Positions 1 to 49,687 of a stretch of DNA of 64,000 bases are shown here, piece after piece. The stretch lies in NCBI GenBank assembly GCA_022784645.1, contig JALFZG010000062.1:1-64000 (forward strand). Reading direction: 5' to 3'. The translations under genes were made by a program, and so were the position numbers. The notes under the pieces were generated by a model. That model was not told the origin of the DNA. It searched no databases and saw only the letters and a program-made list of their open reading frames with translations. Source of the stretch: Bacteroidales bacterium. GTDB taxonomy: Bacteria > Bacteroidota > Bacteroidia > Bacteroidales > Paludibacteraceae. Numbering within the stretch: the stretch's first letter is position 1; each line of letters begins with the position of its first letter.

Positions 1-320
1 TATAAATATATATATAAAGGAGAGAATCTAATGAGGGTGGTACCCTTAATTTTTTTAACTGTAATACTGTAATCTGTAATATTTTGCTATTTATACCAAT
101 CCTAAATCGGCTTTAGCATTGGCCAGTTCGGTGAAGATCTCGTTGGCGAATGCGTGCGGATTGAAGTAGCGCGTGAGCTCTACCTTACGCATATACACCA
201 TCAGACGACCATCCGGCGTGAGGTTGATGTTCAGCCGTTTTTCCCACGCCGTTTCACAAGTCAGGGGACAACTGCCCCACAAGTCAGGGGACAACCCATT
301 GCCATGTGCGATTTTTGTAG

Positions 321-328
321 TACCTTTG
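321..328 (+). promoter_or_regulatory. Bacteroidetes -7 element TACCTTTG with weak -33 ATTG (298-301), N19 spacing
   Basis: Matches TAnnTTTG consensus; precedes the iterons and ORF 541-1092. Confidence 0.5.
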
Positions 329-344
329 CACCGCAATTCAAAAT

Positions 345-441
345 CATCGCACGTTCATCGCACTCTCATCGCGTTACCATCGCACACACGGGCAGGTGTA
401 AACAACAAGCGAACATGGTGTTTCCTGAAGATGCAAGTCGA
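345..441 (+). repeat. Dispersed repeat copy A: 11-bp phased CATCGCAC iterons followed by CAACAAGCGAACATGGTGTTTCCTGAAGATGCAAGTCGA
   Basis: Near-identical to the reverse complement of 39791-39887; read directly in the sequence. Confidence 0.85.
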
Positions 442-540
442 TAAGGAATTGTCATTCTTTTTATTCACCCCTGCGAGGTTTATTCCTAACCCTCTCGTCC
501 CCGCGCCTCGCAGTTATCTATCAGGCGGACATGGAGGGAA

Positions 541-1092
541 TTGATTATGGGTATTGTTCATGGTAATTGGCTCACCGGCACGCACAGTGGCCGCGCCTGC
601 AGGCACGAGAATGTGTACACTCGCGTCAACAAAAAGACCGGGCAGTGCTACTCGGCTCAACTCTGTAACCCCAACCCCTATCGCAACGAGAAGCAGAAGA
701 AGGTCACCACCGCTTTCGCGGTTATCTCCGCAGCTATCTCTGCTTGGATCGCTACCGAGAAGGCGAAGTCCGCTCCGAGCGATGACTTCAAGAAGGTGAA
801 GCTCGCCTTCGACCGCCAGACTCGTTACTCCTCTCTCCGTGGTATGATGATGGCGAAGGGTATGTACAAGGTGGTTGATGGTGCGGTAGTGGTTGACCCC
901 AACGCCAACACCTCTTTCGCCACTGTCTCGGCATCCGTAAAGCTCCCTGATGACTCTGCTAACAGCGACAGCGCACCGGCAGCAGGTGGCAGCGGCAGCG
1001 ACAGCAGCGATAGCGCAACTTCGGGCTCGCAGACTGGCGGCTCTGACAGCGGCAGCGGCGGTAGCTCTGATGGCGACGGCGGATTCGAGTAA
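541..1092 (+). CDS. Hypothetical protein with Ser/Gly/Asp-rich C-terminal tail (likely ATG start at 547)
   Basis: 183-aa ORF, upstream purine-rich GGAGGG, Cys/Arg-rich N-term and low-complexity tail; family not recognised. Confidence 0.55.
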   Translation: MIMGIVHGNWLTGTHSGRACRHENVYTRVNKKTGQCYSAQLCNPNPYRNEKQKKVTTAFAVISAAISAWIATEKAKSAPSDDFKKVKLAFDRQTRYSSLRGMMMAKGMYKVVDGAVVVDPNANTSFATVSASVKLPDDSANSDSAPAAGGSGSDSSDSATSGSQTGGSDSGSGGSSDGDGGFE

Positions 1093-1288
1093 TCCGTATG
1101 CGCCAAGGCGCTTAAGCGCTAAAGAGCGGGCCAGAAGTCTGCGGTGTTCCAGGGGGAGCGGAGCGGCGGATGGAGGACGGAGATAATATCTCCTGCCAAC
1201 AAACAATACGAGAATCGCAGCAAGCTGCTGCGATATCACTACAAGCGCGCAGCGAAGCGAACGTTACAAACAGTGCAGTAACGTTTGC

Positions 1289-1335
1289 AAAACGTTACAA
1301 ACGTTACAAACGTTACACATTTTAGAGTAAGGATA
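1289..1335 (+). repeat. GTTACAAAC (9-bp) repeat block, 47-bp copy ending ACATTTTAGAGTAAGGATA
   Basis: Identical to part of the right arm of the locus at 40495-40555. Confidence 0.85.
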
Positions 1336-1431
1336 TGGCGCTGCGCGCAGTTCCATTTGCGCTTTGCGCGTTCCAGACGCCTGCGGCTGTTCCAGATGAA
1401 AAATCTTCTTTCTTATTACCGCTAAACGATG

Positions 1432-1468
1432 ACAAAAAAGCGCTCCTTGTCATCACGACAGGGAGCGC
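1432..1468 (-). terminator. Intrinsic terminator downstream of the sus operon
   Basis: Hairpin GAGCGCTCC..GGAGCGC followed by T6 on minus strand. Confidence 0.7.
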
Positions 1469-1588
1469 TCATTGCCTTTCGGCTTATTTACTTTATTATT
1501 CCAAGAAACAGCTTTACAATGCAAAATCAAACTTCATCTACATTGTAAGCAAATTAGATGAATAACCAAAATCTATGTTAGTTATTTA

Positions 1589-3766
1589 CTACATTCGTTG
1601 CCCAAGAGCATTATAAAAACAACCGTTTTTCTCAATAATCAGCATTCCATTCTTCATTCGTTTTTGGGTAGAAACAGAATGGGTATTGCTAATGGATGTT
1701 TCGGCTGGACGGGTAATAATCTTCATGTTTACATTATCTATACCGAAAGATGGTGCTGAGGCGCAGTTGTCGCCAGATGAAACAGAGATCATCCAGCAAA
1801 GAAACAAATCCTTTCCAGCAGCCAAATTGCACGGCATACTACCACTAATAGTGGTCGTTTGAGCCGGAACAACGGCATAACCGGCCGTTGCAGATTCGGC
1901 CGCGTATAGCATCTTGAAATCATCACCTGCGCTGTTCCACACATAACCATTATTACTCCAATAGAGTTGGATAGTAAACCCCGCAGCATTGCTGCCTGAA
2001 CGGTATTTCTCGATATCGTACATCAGCTCAATGCCTACTATATCTTGAGCTGATTTGTTTTCTATATGTGCCATGAGATTGATGGTTCTCGTACCATTTG
2101 CAACGCCGGTAGTCATACCACCGATGGCTCGATCGGTAGAACCCGTAGCCCCAAGATTCCAAATACCATTGTAAGCATTGGAAGCCAAACTCTGACCACC
2201 GATATAGGTAGCAGTATCTACAGCCGCAGCATAACTACCAATCGTTCGTGGACCGGTTGTGTTGCGCTCTATTCGCCATCCTTCCGGAAGGATAGACCCT
2301 CTCTTTATACCCGTCTTGGCATCCTGAGAGGGGTCAACATCATCCCCTCCGAGGCTATCAAAATCCTGAAAATAAGTAGTGTCGGTTTCAGTGAAGACAA
2401 TAGCCGGAAAATCAACAGTCTGCGTAATGGCTTCTCCAGCATTTACAAGTGACTTATACACCACTCCATCATACATTGCTTCTACTTGATACGTTCCTGC
2501 GTTGAGAGCAGTGAGAATGCTATCGGTCATGGAGCCATTATCAGCAGAATAAGAGGCAGCCGTAAGCACTCCGGCGCTCATCCCATTCGTATCCAGTTGA
2601 TGAAGCGAAAAACGAATGGTATGTGCATGATTATCCACTACCTGCTCAAAATGCTGCCACGCATACGAAGCATACCCACGTATGACAGCGGCATCGGCAG
2701 CCGGCAAAGTACTTGGAGCCCAAGTGATGGTGATGGGATCAACGCCAAAAATCGTAGCATATTCCAAGCAGCAAGCGGCATACGTAGCTTTAGTGGTAGG
2801 ATGACGATCGTCTTTATACCATGTAGAGAGAATAGTAGCATCTTGCTCTGAGGCGTATTGATAACATGGCCCTACGGGACATAGCACCACGCCCAACTCT
2901 TGCGCCACTTGAAGATAATTCTGCAAGAAGATTTGGTTAAATTCAGCAAACGGATCGGTGTTATACGCCCAATTGATAGGAAGAATAATCACTACATTCG
3001 GATTGGGGCAATTTTCTCTGATATATTTCACCCAATCACAAACAGACTGACGAAAACCAGCGAAGTTCGTACGCGGTTTAGCAGTCTGCTCTTGGAGAAT
3101 GATATGCGTCCATGCTTCCGTTCGTACCAACATTCGCGCAGAAGGGGTGCCGGCATCGGTGAGTCCTTCGCCCTCATCATAGTGATATTGGAGCGATTTG
3201 CCCAAATTGGTATGGGCAGTCCATTGTGCCGTTTTGCCCATGGCCAGCGCCATCTGATTGAAGATATCATCTTGCCATTCTTGCTCATAATGAATCAGCG
3301 AGTTGTTCATAGAGAGCACTTTTATTTCCTCCGGTTGGCTAGTGAGCAACGTGGCACTTTGCGGCCAAAGGGCAATGCCGGCCAACTCAATAGGTGCATC
3401 TGGCGCTTTCTCGATTAGCACCGAGGGAATAGCAGGATTAAACGTTATCTTTTTACAGATTGTTGTTTCAGCCACAGTCAGATTGCTATTCGAACCCGAT
3501 ACGAGGGTGTAAGCCACTCCAGGGGTAACGAGCCCGCCATCGGCCGCCGCGCCGTAATTGCAAGCCGCTGACCAATTAGCATCGGCAATCTTAAATTGCC
3601 CCGTAAGGGTATAATTCTCTATGGTGTAAGTACCATCAGATTGTAGGGTCATTTCGTCAGCGGGAGCCGCCCCCCAACTGTTGTGTGCACCGCGTACAAA
3701 CACGCCTTGAGCCACTGCACCCAATGCAGACAGCAACCATGCACAAATAAATAATAGTTTCTTCAT
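1589..3766 (-). CDS. Secreted multidomain protein: N-terminal SusE/F-like starch-binding-type module, SGNH/DUF4886-like hydrolase, C-terminal sorting-like tail
   Basis: Signal peptide; VFVRGAHNSWG.. module; VLSMNNSL and DDRHPT SGNH-like motifs; C-term MLIIEKNGCFYNALGQRM. Confidence 0.65.
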   Translation of the reverse strand: MKKLLFICAWLLSALGAVAQGVFVRGAHNSWGAAPADEMTLQSDGTYTIENYTLTGQFKIADANWSAACNYGAAADGGLVTPGVAYTLVSGSNSNLTVAETTICKKITFNPAIPSVLIEKAPDAPIELAGIALWPQSATLLTSQPEEIKVLSMNNSLIHYEQEWQDDIFNQMALAMGKTAQWTAHTNLGKSLQYHYDEGEGLTDAGTPSARMLVRTEAWTHIILQEQTAKPRTNFAGFRQSVCDWVKYIRENCPNPNVVIILPINWAYNTDPFAEFNQIFLQNYLQVAQELGVVLCPVGPCYQYASEQDATILSTWYKDDRHPTTKATYAACCLEYATIFGVDPITITWAPSTLPAADAAVIRGYASYAWQHFEQVVDNHAHTIRFSLHQLDTNGMSAGVLTAASYSADNGSMTDSILTALNAGTYQVEAMYDGVVYKSLVNAGEAITQTVDFPAIVFTETDTTYFQDFDSLGGDDVDPSQDAKTGIKRGSILPEGWRIERNTTGPRTIGSYAAAVDTATYIGGQSLASNAYNGIWNLGATGSTDRAIGGMTTGVANGTRTINLMAHIENKSAQDIVGIELMYDIEKYRSGSNAAGFTIQLYWSNNGYVWNSAGDDFKMLYAAESATAGYAVVPAQTTTISGSMPCNLAAGKDLFLCWMISVSSGDNCASAPSFGIDNVNMKIITRPAETSISNTHSVSTQKRMKNGMLIIEKNGCFYNALGQRM

Positions 3767-3795
3767 ATTGGTATATTTTCTATTTATGGGAGAAG

Positions 3796-5130
3796 TTAGA
3801 GAGTCATATATACTTTATACTCATACGGCTGGAGGGGAAGCACTTTGGGCGTAAGGACGGAATCACCCGTGAGCGCATCGATGCAGTTATAACGTTGCCA
3901 AAGCATCGGGAGAGTTACTTCCTGATTCACACCTGATACATTTACCACCACCAGCGCTTTCTTTTCGCCTTGCGAAAACGTGAACATACCTACTCGTTCG
4001 GTGCTGAAATCCGTACGCGTTCCATAGCGCGCTTCGGCCGTGAGCTGGTAGGCTCGCATCAAACTACAATATGCTTCAAAAACGGCATTATCGCTCGCTG
4101 AAGCACTATCTTTGATAGACGGGAAAGAAAGCAGATGATGGTTGAAGAAATTGATTTGCCCCATCTCGCCTATCTCCTGTGAAGAATAAATCATCGGAAC
4201 GCCCTCGAGGAAAAACGTCAGACAGCTGGCAGCCAGTTCACCCTGCGCGGACACAAACCACCGCGAGGGCGCATTCTCACTGGCAGCATCATGACTGGTC
4301 ACGTTGCGCAAACGCTGCTTCCCTTCGGGGGTAGCGCTCATCTCGCGTTCGCTGGTCGCATAAAGCGCTTGTAAACTCTGCGAGTAGATTTTCTGTACAG
4401 CACCTAAGTAATCCCAACTGTAGAGCCAGTCGAAACCGCTACCATAGTAATCCACCTTACTCGTTTCTGCCAGCATCACCGCATTGGGTTTGACCGAACG
4501 GATAGCGCGGATAGCCTCTGCCCAATAATCAGCAGGAACACCATGCGCATAATCACAGCGAAAACCATCGATATCGGCTTCGCGCATCCAATAGAGGAGC
4601 GCCTCTGTCATGGCATCACGCACAGCCGGTTGCTCATAGTTGAGCGGCACCACATCTTTCCAGTTCACTTCATCGGCCACGGGCGAGGTGTACCATTCGG
4701 GGTGCTGCTCATACCAGGCGTTATCCCAAGCCGTATGGTTTGCAACCCAATCGAGAATAACGAGCATGCCATTCTCATGGCAGGTTTTAACGAGCGAACG
4801 CAAATCATCAATAGTGCCGAACGCAGGGTCAACTACGAAGTAATCTTTTACGCAGTAAGGCGAATTGACGGTCTTGACTGTTCCTCTCGGGTGAATAGGC
4901 ATCAACCATAGCACATTTACTTGCATGCGCCGAAGTGCGGGTACATAGTTTTCTATTGCCTGAAAAGCGTTGGTTTGCGCAAACAGTCGCTCGTTGCATT
5001 CATATACCACATAGGTATTGGCTTTATTGTAAAGGGTAGGCTCATCGCCTTCGATGGGTTTATCTTTCGGCTCGCAGGCAGAAAGCATACCCGATAAGCA
5101 ACAGGCGATCAGCAGAAACAGTTTTTTCAT
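3796..5130 (-). CDS. Alpha-amylase family (GH13) lipoprotein
   Basis: Lipobox LSAC; VNVLWLMPIHP, DWVANHTA, GFRCDYA, LAETS, SHD GH13 motifs. Confidence 0.9.
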   Translation of the reverse strand: MKKLFLLIACCLSGMLSACEPKDKPIEGDEPTLYNKANTYVVYECNERLFAQTNAFQAIENYVPALRRMQVNVLWLMPIHPRGTVKTVNSPYCVKDYFVVDPAFGTIDDLRSLVKTCHENGMLVILDWVANHTAWDNAWYEQHPEWYTSPVADEVNWKDVVPLNYEQPAVRDAMTEALLYWMREADIDGFRCDYAHGVPADYWAEAIRAIRSVKPNAVMLAETSKVDYYGSGFDWLYSWDYLGAVQKIYSQSLQALYATSEREMSATPEGKQRLRNVTSHDAASENAPSRWFVSAQGELAASCLTFFLEGVPMIYSSQEIGEMGQINFFNHHLLSFPSIKDSASASDNAVFEAYCSLMRAYQLTAEARYGTRTDFSTERVGMFTFSQGEKKALVVVNVSGVNQEVTLPMLWQRYNCIDALTGDSVLTPKVLPLQPYEYKVYMTL

Positions 5131-30227: not shown

Positions 30228-30258
30228 AAAGGTACAAAAAAAATCCGAAATATGCAAA
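30228..30258 (-). promoter_or_regulatory. Promoter TTTG-N19-TACCTTTG for the hydrolase gene
   Basis: CAAAGGTA 30228-30235 and CAAA 30255-30258 on plus strand; -33 box overlaps the upstream terminator T-run. Confidence 0.75.
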
Positions 30259-30327
30259 AAAAAAGAAAGGATGTCATCTCGACATCCCAATCTTTACTTA
30301 ACCTTAAATCTAATACCATGAAAAACA
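30256..30327 (-). ncRNA. Candidate ~72-nt small RNA, apparent relative of the one at 26907-26978
   Basis: Promoter TTTG-N20-TAATTTTG (30333-30364), CATCGTG start region, terminator GGATGTC-GAGAT-GACATCC + TTTCTTTTTTTTT. Confidence 0.7.
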
Positions 30328-30509
30328 CGATGCAAAATTACTGCTTTTCTGCAATACCACCAAATATTTTTCGGAAAAAAACATCAAAATACACTAATTT
30401 TCATCATTTTGCTATTTATAGATTGCAAAATACACCTGTTTTTACGTTTTTGGGTATAAAAACAAGATGTTTCAATATTGGCTGTAAATCCTCCAAAGGG
30501 CCAAATAAA

Positions 30510-39466: not shown

Positions 39467-39506
39467 CTATATAAATTTGTTTTTTCCTGAAAAACATAGA
39501 CAACCA

Positions 39507-40548
39507 TACTCTAAAATGTGTAACGTTTGTAACGTTTGTAACGTTTTGACGTGTATGTCAATAAAGAACAAAATAGACAGGTTGTTTTTTTAAGAACAAA
39601 ATTTTACAAAATTTTACAAAATTACTCGTTATATTCAAAAAAAATCTTGTTTAATCTTGAATAATCTTGTTTTTTAAAAGAACAAAATTTCTCAAAATTT
39701 TTCAAAATTATTTCTCGTAACCAAAATTAATCTTGTTTAATAGGGCGTAGCCCGTTGAATAATAGAGCTTGCTCGTTGTTATTTTAAAACTCGACTTGCA
39801 TCTGCAGGAAACACCATGTGCGCTTGTTGACTACTCGTGTACGTGTGTGCGATGGTAACGCGATGAGAGTGCGATGAACGTGCGATGCGTCTCCGTTGGG
39901 GCCCCCAGAGTGCTATGCTCGAATGGGGAGAGGAGGAGATGCGGAGCGCTTAAAGTCTCTGACCCGGGAAGAGACTTTCGTTAGCGAAGCCATCTCCGAC
40001 GATTGCGGTGCAAAATTACTGCTAAAAATTGGATAAAAAAAAGGTAAAATGCACGAAATCCGAAAAAAATGCAATTAACTCTGTAAAAATACAGAGGAGT
40101 TGCATATTTACAAATATTTCGTGTTGTATTTTATGTCAGAACGTATTAGCATATTTGTCAAAACATTACAAACGTTACAAACGTTACACATTTTTGAGTC
40201 TCAGGCACGTGTGCGCATATAGTATAATATAATACTCCCCCCCTAAGAAATAACCCCCCAAATTTATCATTTAAACACATGGGAAAATGGCATATAAAAT
40301 ACCGAAAAGTAGGGAGTAAAGTGGTAAAAAGTAGGGGGTAATGGCTGAAAAAAGCATAGTTGATGATTCCTTACTCTCAAATGTGTAATGTTTGTAACGC
40401 TTGTAACGCTTCGTCAATTTTTTTAGGAAACCGTCTACTTTCTTAGGAAAAATAGTATTAACCTGTCTACTTTTTTTAGGAAAAGACAATGTTTTGACAT
40501 ACACGTCAAAACGTTACAAACGTTACAAACGTTACACATTTTAGAGTA
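39507..40548. mobile_element. Putative MITE-like / transposase-less unit bounded by 54-bp perfect inverted repeats
   Basis: 39507-39560 is the exact reverse complement of 40495-40548; inserted between zeta-toxin-like gene and phoH. Confidence 0.6.
39791..39887 (-). repeat. Dispersed repeat copy B (11-bp phased CATCGCAC iterons plus conserved flank)
   Basis: Near-identical to 345-441 in opposite orientation. Confidence 0.85.
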
Positions 40549-40640
40549 AGGATAACGTTACAAACAGGGAACGGAGTGAGCGTTACACTTTTTAGAGTAA
40601 GGGTACCCTGATTTTTACTCGAGATGCGCGTTGATTCAAC

Positions 40641-45620: not shown

Positions 45621-45685
45621 TTGTGGACTCATTGAGGAGGCTTTGTGGACTCATTGAGGAGGCATTGTGGACTCATTGAGGAGAG
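45621..45685. repeat. Three tandem copies of 22-bp TTGTGGACTCATTGAGGAGGCN
   Basis: Read directly; lpxD-lpxC intergenic region. Confidence 0.9.
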
Positions 45686-45692
45686 TTTGGGG

Positions 45693-49339: not shown

Positions 49340-49413
49340 GGTCTGGTAGCTCAGCTGGATAGAGCAACAGCCTTCTAAGCTGTGGGTCTCGGGTTCGAAT
49401 CCCGACCGGATCA
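49340..49413 (+). tRNA. tRNA-Arg (TCT)
   Basis: Cloverleaf folds by eye: GGTCTGG/CCGGATC acceptor, CTTCTAA anticodon loop, TTCGAAT T-loop. Confidence 0.95.
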
Positions 49414-49618
49414 CAAGGAAAAGCAACCGGCGCATCGGAAAAATTTATTTTTCCAGTGCAAAGGTTGCTTTTACTTGTTAGACTGCAGCCCGCAGGGCAA
49501 GGGATAATAAAATAATCCCGACCGGATCACAAGGAAAAGCAACCGGCGCATCGGAAAAATTTATTTTTCCAGTGCAAAGGTTGCTTTTACTTGTTAGATA
49601 GCAGCCCGCAGGGCAAGG
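49398..49618 (+). repeat. 105-bp direct repeat pair (49398-49502 and 49514-49618) including tRNA-Arg 3' end and terminator-like hairpin
   Basis: Near-identical, two mismatches noted, 116-bp offset. Confidence 0.9.
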
Positions 49619-49643: not shown

Positions 49644-49687
49644 CATCGCACGACCATCGTACAGTCATCGCACGTTCATCGCACACA
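49644..49687 (+). repeat. Four 11-bp iterons CATCGCACGAC/CATCGTACAGT/CATCGCACGTT/CATCGCACACA (locus C)
   Basis: Read directly; same motif as loci A and B. Confidence 0.85.

Follow-up and report, generated by a model that had tools for sequence, protein, structure and literature searches.

What is the mosaic of short repeats around a low-complexity open reading frame (ORF) with which contig C31 begins, and how is it related to two further repeat loci on the same contig? The window, i.e. the whole stretch of DNA that was analysed, comprises the first 64 kb of contig C31 (71,458 bp) of assembly G000 (2.29 Mb, 90 contigs, 98.6% complete). Window base 1 is base 1 of the contig, so that no sequence upstream of the first locus (locus A) can be read and its left end lies beyond the contig. 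An uncultured Bacteroidales MAG (G150, contigs CAMGMU...), which shares many neighbourhoods with G000 at ~83–98% nucleotide identity, was used as sister species. On balance, locus A is probably a reduced member of a replication element that is present in many copies and was once mobile, with control through an RNA stem (P2) and a ligand and with hairpins dispersed by RAYT-like transposases; taken as a whole, this is the best explanation. The conserved RNA leader, which was missed by the original prediction, is the part most worth pursuing.

Layout of locus A and its relatives in the window

Locus A and its relatives B and C were mapped as follows (window positions, strand, feature).

91–240, minus: ORFX, truncated 3' end of a 107-aa ORF (tblastn 100%, residues 59–107 at 240–94)
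252–297, plus: two direct repeats ACAAGTCAGGGGACAAC, upstream of the promoter
298–335, plus: predicted Bacteroidetes-type promoter, ATTG, 19 nt and TACCTTTG (-7 type box)
345–385, plus: CATCGCAC direct repeats (iterons) in the predicted 5' UTR
462–549, plus: conserved leader RNA (95.9 bits with model R1, whose training set included this sequence)
471–478, plus: pseudoknot stem P1, 5' arm CTGCGAGG
490–500, plus: pseudoknot stem P2, 5' arm CCCTCTCGTCC, within the P1 loop
506–513, plus: pseudoknot stem P1, 3' arm CCTCGCAG
527–538, plus: pseudoknot stem P2, 3' arm GGACATGGAGGG, 8 nt before the start codon
547–1092, plus: gene for a 181-aa protein, family unassigned (homology-supported start, dN/dS)
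1176–1239, plus: hairpin repeat M3, consisting of ACGGAGATAATATCTCCT, conserved linker CCAACAAACAATACG and a second hairpin
1288–1333, plus: end module M4, GTTACAAAC iterons and ACATTTTAGAGTAAGG
1338–1396, plus: M5, tandem hairpins of ~20 nt, variable in their stems and with a GTTCCA linker
39504–40600, minus: locus B, a relative that lacks the ORF; its modules are M4, iterons, two inner M4 spaced ~190 bp apart, and M4
49644–49685, plus: locus C, which lies behind a tRNA and has CATCGCAC iterons only

Loci A, B and C had been predicted to carry the same modules in different order, and module order does vary among them. The block said to be common to A and B was recovered: 1288–1335 is identical over 48 bases to 40507–40554, and the GTTACAAAC block also matches 39504–39548 in inverted orientation (chance expectation 0.00 for a 41-mer of the block). 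The promoter/CATCGCAC block likewise recurs at B, where 345–441 aligns with 39791–39887 inverted (97 nt, 92%). The proposed likeness between A and C extends to the shared iterons but not to the rest; the iterons of locus C match locus B over 31 nt at 84%. TATATATATAAAGGAG had been described as similar to a part of locus C, but a second match was absent from the window with ≤2 mismatches allowed. The TATATATA module (TATATA type) was rejected as a family member, its similarity being unsupported in the window. GGTACCCTTAATTTT pairs with 40602–40616 as proposed, with one mismatch to the shared pattern (expected 0.01), and this GGTACCC pair is unlikely to be a chance match; neither GGTACCCTTAATTTT nor GGTACCC was found as a consistent module among family members. 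For the ORF, placed at 541–1092, the open frame stands and the start moves to a homology-supported ATG at 547.

Many members of the repeat family exist beyond these three loci, in both G000 and G150. Block 1–335 recurs at G000:C9 (92%) and at G150:C67 (91%). The whole of locus A gave 97 matches in its own genome, self included, and window 1–4000 gave 81 in G150. In 60 other genomes of the genus, only the promoter stretch was found among the matches listed, as is expected for a promoter motif; with the listed matches confined to this stretch, the repeats of the locus A family appear to be recent to the G000/G150 species pair. A lack of co-occurrence of ORF and repeats elsewhere, which would have spoken against the proposed association, was not what was found: the two stand together at many loci of G000 and also at G150 C10 and C13. 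In Mediterranea, Prevotellaceae and a horse Paludibacteraceae MAG the ORF is present without these repeats, and judged from these genomes it is not bound to them in general.

Element subtypes were compared over the same region. In another subtype CACGCAATCCGGACCAAC replaces ACAAGTCAGGGGACAAC with the layout unchanged, and in the 5' UTR of the copy at G000:C11, where ORFX (107 aa) is intact, CATTGAGGA repeats take the place of the CATCGCAC iterons. More generally, the two upstream direct repeats, each ~18 nt long, and the 5'-UTR iterons vary in sequence between subtypes and keep their layout (e.g. L190, G000:C34). Changing repeats in a constant layout would fit subtype-specific regulators, i.e. 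a separate regulator for each subtype.

Three further features of the window were recorded. A 105-nt tandem duplication (98%) at 49340–49618 begins inside the 3' end of a tRNA gene and lies directly before the locus C iterons; it looks like an attachment-site-like scar. Tandem TTGTGGACTCATTGAGGAGG repeats are found at 45621–45692, and FopS small RNA was detected at 30255–30328 on the minus strand (Rfam RF04319, 78.9 bits).

The Ser/Gly-tailed protein and its leader RNA

The 181-aa protein consists of a conserved N-terminal part of ~120 aa and an acidic Ser/Gly tail ending in GGFE. Its gene gave 21 matches in its own genome, corresponding to roughly fourteen copies. Full copies were located on C31, C51, C90, C60 and C76 and a divergent one on C11; 5' and 3' pieces lie at contig ends. 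Relatives with 41–60% identity were found in Mediterranea, Prevotellaceae UBA1743 and Paludibacteraceae MAGs, and short, more distant ones within the same genus. The dN/dS ratio was 0.13–0.40 in the N-domain (first ~130 codons), and the Ser/Gly tail was looser; judged by these ratios, the N-domain is under purifying selection.

Searches of the protein against Pfam, NCBIfam and PADLOC gave no match, and PHROGs gave a weak match only, via the low-complexity tail. AlphaFold returned a confident helical core only at approximately residues 51–130, and the predicted fold (pLDDT 64) had no usable match in PDB or BFVD. An HU-like identity (PF18291, HU-HIG, Bacteroides cassettes) was considered and rejected, as the tailed protein lacks a Pfam match and the HU-HIG matches are at other places in the genome. 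A search for phage, plasmid and viral-contig relatives returned none. In the literature, no description was found of the Ser/Gly-tailed protein, its pseudoknot leader or this element.

Across subtypes, the best conserved part is the ~85 nt 5' of the gene. Window 471–538 can form an H-type pseudoknot (P1, 471–478 with 506–513; P2, 490–500 with 527–538), in which P2 spans the bases immediately ahead of the start codon. The P1/P2 layout precedes the gene in G000 types I–III, at C76, at G150 C4, at four Mediterranea loci and in UBA1743. At least two Bacteroidales families have the pseudoknot ahead of this gene, with compensatory changes. The layout is missing at the horse Paludibacteraceae copy and in the short same-genus relatives. 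For P1, 95.7% of cells were paired and 10 cells carried a double change; 0 of 500 shuffles scored as high, and slid versions were 31–51% paired. P2 was examined by an arm-swapping test without alignment, in which the true arms surpassed all but 66 of 20,000 permutations in stability. With both stems in a hand alignment 97.7% of cells were paired, P2 being aligned by hand such that some between-family double changes could be register shift. A leader with stem P1 and a crossing P2 over the pre-start region is supported by covariation.

Nested folding energies were ordinary for the leader itself (z -0.45 for window 466–546, z +0.50 for 332–560), and z-scores of -1.8 to -3.1 were obtained for the leaders of three relatives. 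The nested minimum-energy fold contains P2 and a small hairpin instead of P1; with P2 formed in it without P1, a switch between two forms is conceivable.

The covariance model gave 17 strong matches among the loci compared, most of them training sequences and all directly before the gene. A solo leader was found at C34 before a decayed gene. In a search of 393 genomes of the order the leader was found only in G000; a weak second match in G328 was rejected, as no such gene lies behind it. An Rfam scan of window 300–600 gave no match at E≤10. Separately, a DUF805b RNA (Rfam RF02914) was noted near a G150 element copy (L123 1323–1357).

We infer translational control through P2, which may keep the start region closed. 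A ligand, for which the encoded basic protein itself is the simplest candidate, would then bind and switch translation, and output from the many copies would be capped. Autoregulation by the encoded protein is our preferred reading, held tentatively and somewhat short of probable. The rival reading, that the leader is a metabolite riboswitch or the target of a host protein, is judged rather unlikely. A compact pseudoknot over the start region is a common riboswitch layout, which this leader has; among the loci searched, however, it precedes the element gene only and never a metabolic gene. Extended further, autoregulation leads to a new element-borne family of pseudoknot leaders, in which a small RNA-binding protein would sense and cap the total output of a dozen or more copies kept alike by recombination; this wider proposal is speculative, with doubt outweighing confidence.

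Repeats, fuller copies and matched sites

The 32-base core of the M4 GTTACAAAC module was counted 30 times in the G000 genome, 15 on each strand (reversed-pattern control, 0); all other repeat counts are from the loci compared. From these loci 107 M4 copies were listed. M4 has two forms, with CGTTACAAA or GTTCACAAA as iterons, which change as a set, and with a constant CACATTTTAGAGTAAGG. M3 is represented by 49 distinct copies with swapped stems, the arms changing in step (GGAGAT..ATCTCC, CTGCAGAT..ATCAGCAG, GCGGAT..ATCCGC) and the linker between them being constant. M5 forms 43 tandem arrays of ~20-nt hairpins with a fixed GTTCCA linker in G000 and G150. RAYT-like HUH genes lie inside two copies, at C84 and G150 C79; the proteins matched NCBIfam NF047646 at 3.5e-6 and 1.5e-3, below the cut-off. 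A Y1 transposase (Y1_Tnp) over the Pfam cut-off lies at C8, flanked by GGGGACAGTCCCC hairpins. The two divergent RAYT-like HUH proteins inside element copies (L068 902–1891 and L139 914–1948) are ~20–25% identical over matched parts.

REP-like spread of the hairpins is a fair inference from these repeats, with M3 and M5 dispersed by RAYT-like HUH transposases such as those inside the two copies. It might be taken further, so that the mosaic would be only a REP/BIME-like repeat spread by RAYT, with the ORF and primase genes as bystanders that gather hairpins. Short hairpins with swapped stems and conserved linkers at many intergenic sites without the ORF would agree with this, as would the existence of RAYT-like genes. 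The fixed order of promoter, leader, gene and M4 at many loci and the position of M4 at the 3' ends of the element's operons, however, argue against it, and we consider the bystander reading rather unlikely.

The original prediction that locus A may be a fuller member of the family with cargo holds only in part: fuller copies are G150 C53 and C79 and G000 C60, C11 and C41, and A is a reduced copy. At G150 C53 and C79, a 780–816-aa BT4734-like primase/DUF3987 protein, an SSB-like protein and small proteins are encoded on the other side of the promoter/iteron region, in divergent orientation, and this operon ends at an M4 module. BT4734-like_N and DUF3987 were above the Pfam cut-off at G150 C53 and G000 C41, and the SSB-like OB protein matched the DUF3127 / phage SSB family. 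Behind the gene paralogue at G000:C11 lie genes for a two-TM protein, a DUF5675 protein and a ~40-aa protein, which we take to be 'smalltalk-like' (after a Bacteroides gene), and then the end repeats. The gene upstream at C60 is presumably VapE-like. An in-frame insertion of M3 into it was considered and dropped, since with a start codon further along the frame the repeat falls between genes. At locus A a primase fragment was looked for and not found.

The composition of the full element is shown by sequence. Its BT4734-like primase is fused to a DUF3987 helicase and accompanied by an SSB-like OB protein and by small genes. These genes diverge from the promoter, on whose other side short direct repeats in the 5' UTR, the leader RNA and the Ser/Gly-tailed gene follow. 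Small membrane genes (two-TM, DUF5675, ~40-aa) come after the tailed gene, and iteron-plus-ACATTTTAGAGTAAGG modules stand at the 3' end of both operons. The sequences also show that the replication genes are gone from many copies and that copies recombine or replace one another.

Sites matched between the two species bear on the last step. At the nth site the whole operon is present in G150 C53; in G000 C32 only the last ~173 primase codons are left, and a pair of M3 repeats marks the gap. The glycosyltransferase site of G000 carries a primase fragment whose subtype differs from that of its counterpart in G150. The copies at these two sites are 97% alike within G150, and matched sites across species are 91–93% alike. 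The nadB site holds a type II leader and gene in G000 and a truncated type I in G150. Different subtypes, or intact versus truncated primase, at matched sites indicate that members recombine or replace each other, as had been predicted for one repeat family, and a single recombining family including A, B and C is supported at the level of sequence comparison. Recombination or replacement is what the matched sites support; no transposition event was caught, most of the compared element sites are common to both species, and neither a clean empty site nor a target duplication turned up among the compared loci. Separately, ~2.3 kb found in only one of the two species (L079, G000:C88, 2238–4577, versus L129, G150) has M3 at the junction.

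Positions are conserved between the two species at the pyrimidine-gene and nadB sites. Together with purifying selection, conserved positions could point to a domesticated cell gene (e.g. nucleoid-like or surface) that is now outside any mobile element. Variable copy number, truncated and decayed copies and co-location with primase/helicase genes speak against domestication, which we regard as improbable. An assembly artefact at the contig end is very improbable: at least ten contigs begin or end inside the gene, but internal full copies exist on C90, C60 and C76 and matched-site copies in an independent MAG.

Comparison with known systems

The probable reduced replication element provides a compact, testable candidate regulatory RNA in Bacteroidales, outside Rfam and tied to an uncharacterised protein family. 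It also provides a paired-species example in which replication-type elements would decay to hairpin-repeat mosaics, with selection maintained on a single gene and its leader.

With start-region pseudoknot leaders (riboswitches and autogenous leaders) it shares an arm by the start codon that pairs with an upstream hairpin loop; here the leader belongs to no Rfam family (E≤10) and was found only before an uncharacterised gene. REP/BIME repeats with RAYT are similar in their dispersed short hairpins, intergenic mosaics and RAYT-like HUH genes, and by the Y1_Tnp match on C8 a RAYT-type transposase is present in G000. Several unrelated hairpin modules with swapped stems set the present repeats apart, and the fixed REP tetranucleotide (GTAG type) is absent, M5 units starting with GTAG, ATTG, TTAG, GATG, GAAG and others. 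The BrickBuilt MITE of Porphyromonas gingivalis (PMC4596501) is likewise a repeat interspersed in a Bacteroidales genome and contains direct repeats. It differs in its IS5-like terminal repeats and in tandem units of 23 nt, whereas here a gene is carried and the ends are formed by GTTACAAAC iterons and ACATTTTAGAGTAAGG; IS5-type terminal inverted repeats are not present, the ends being CCTTACTCTAAAATGTGTAACG and its inverse. Mobile elements encode DUF3987 and VirE ATPases that are predicted to be helicases (PMC5862659). Compared with the BT4734-like primase/DUF3987 (VirE-type) modules of Bacteroidetes mobile elements, both domains are absent from locus A, whereas the fuller copies carry the same domains.
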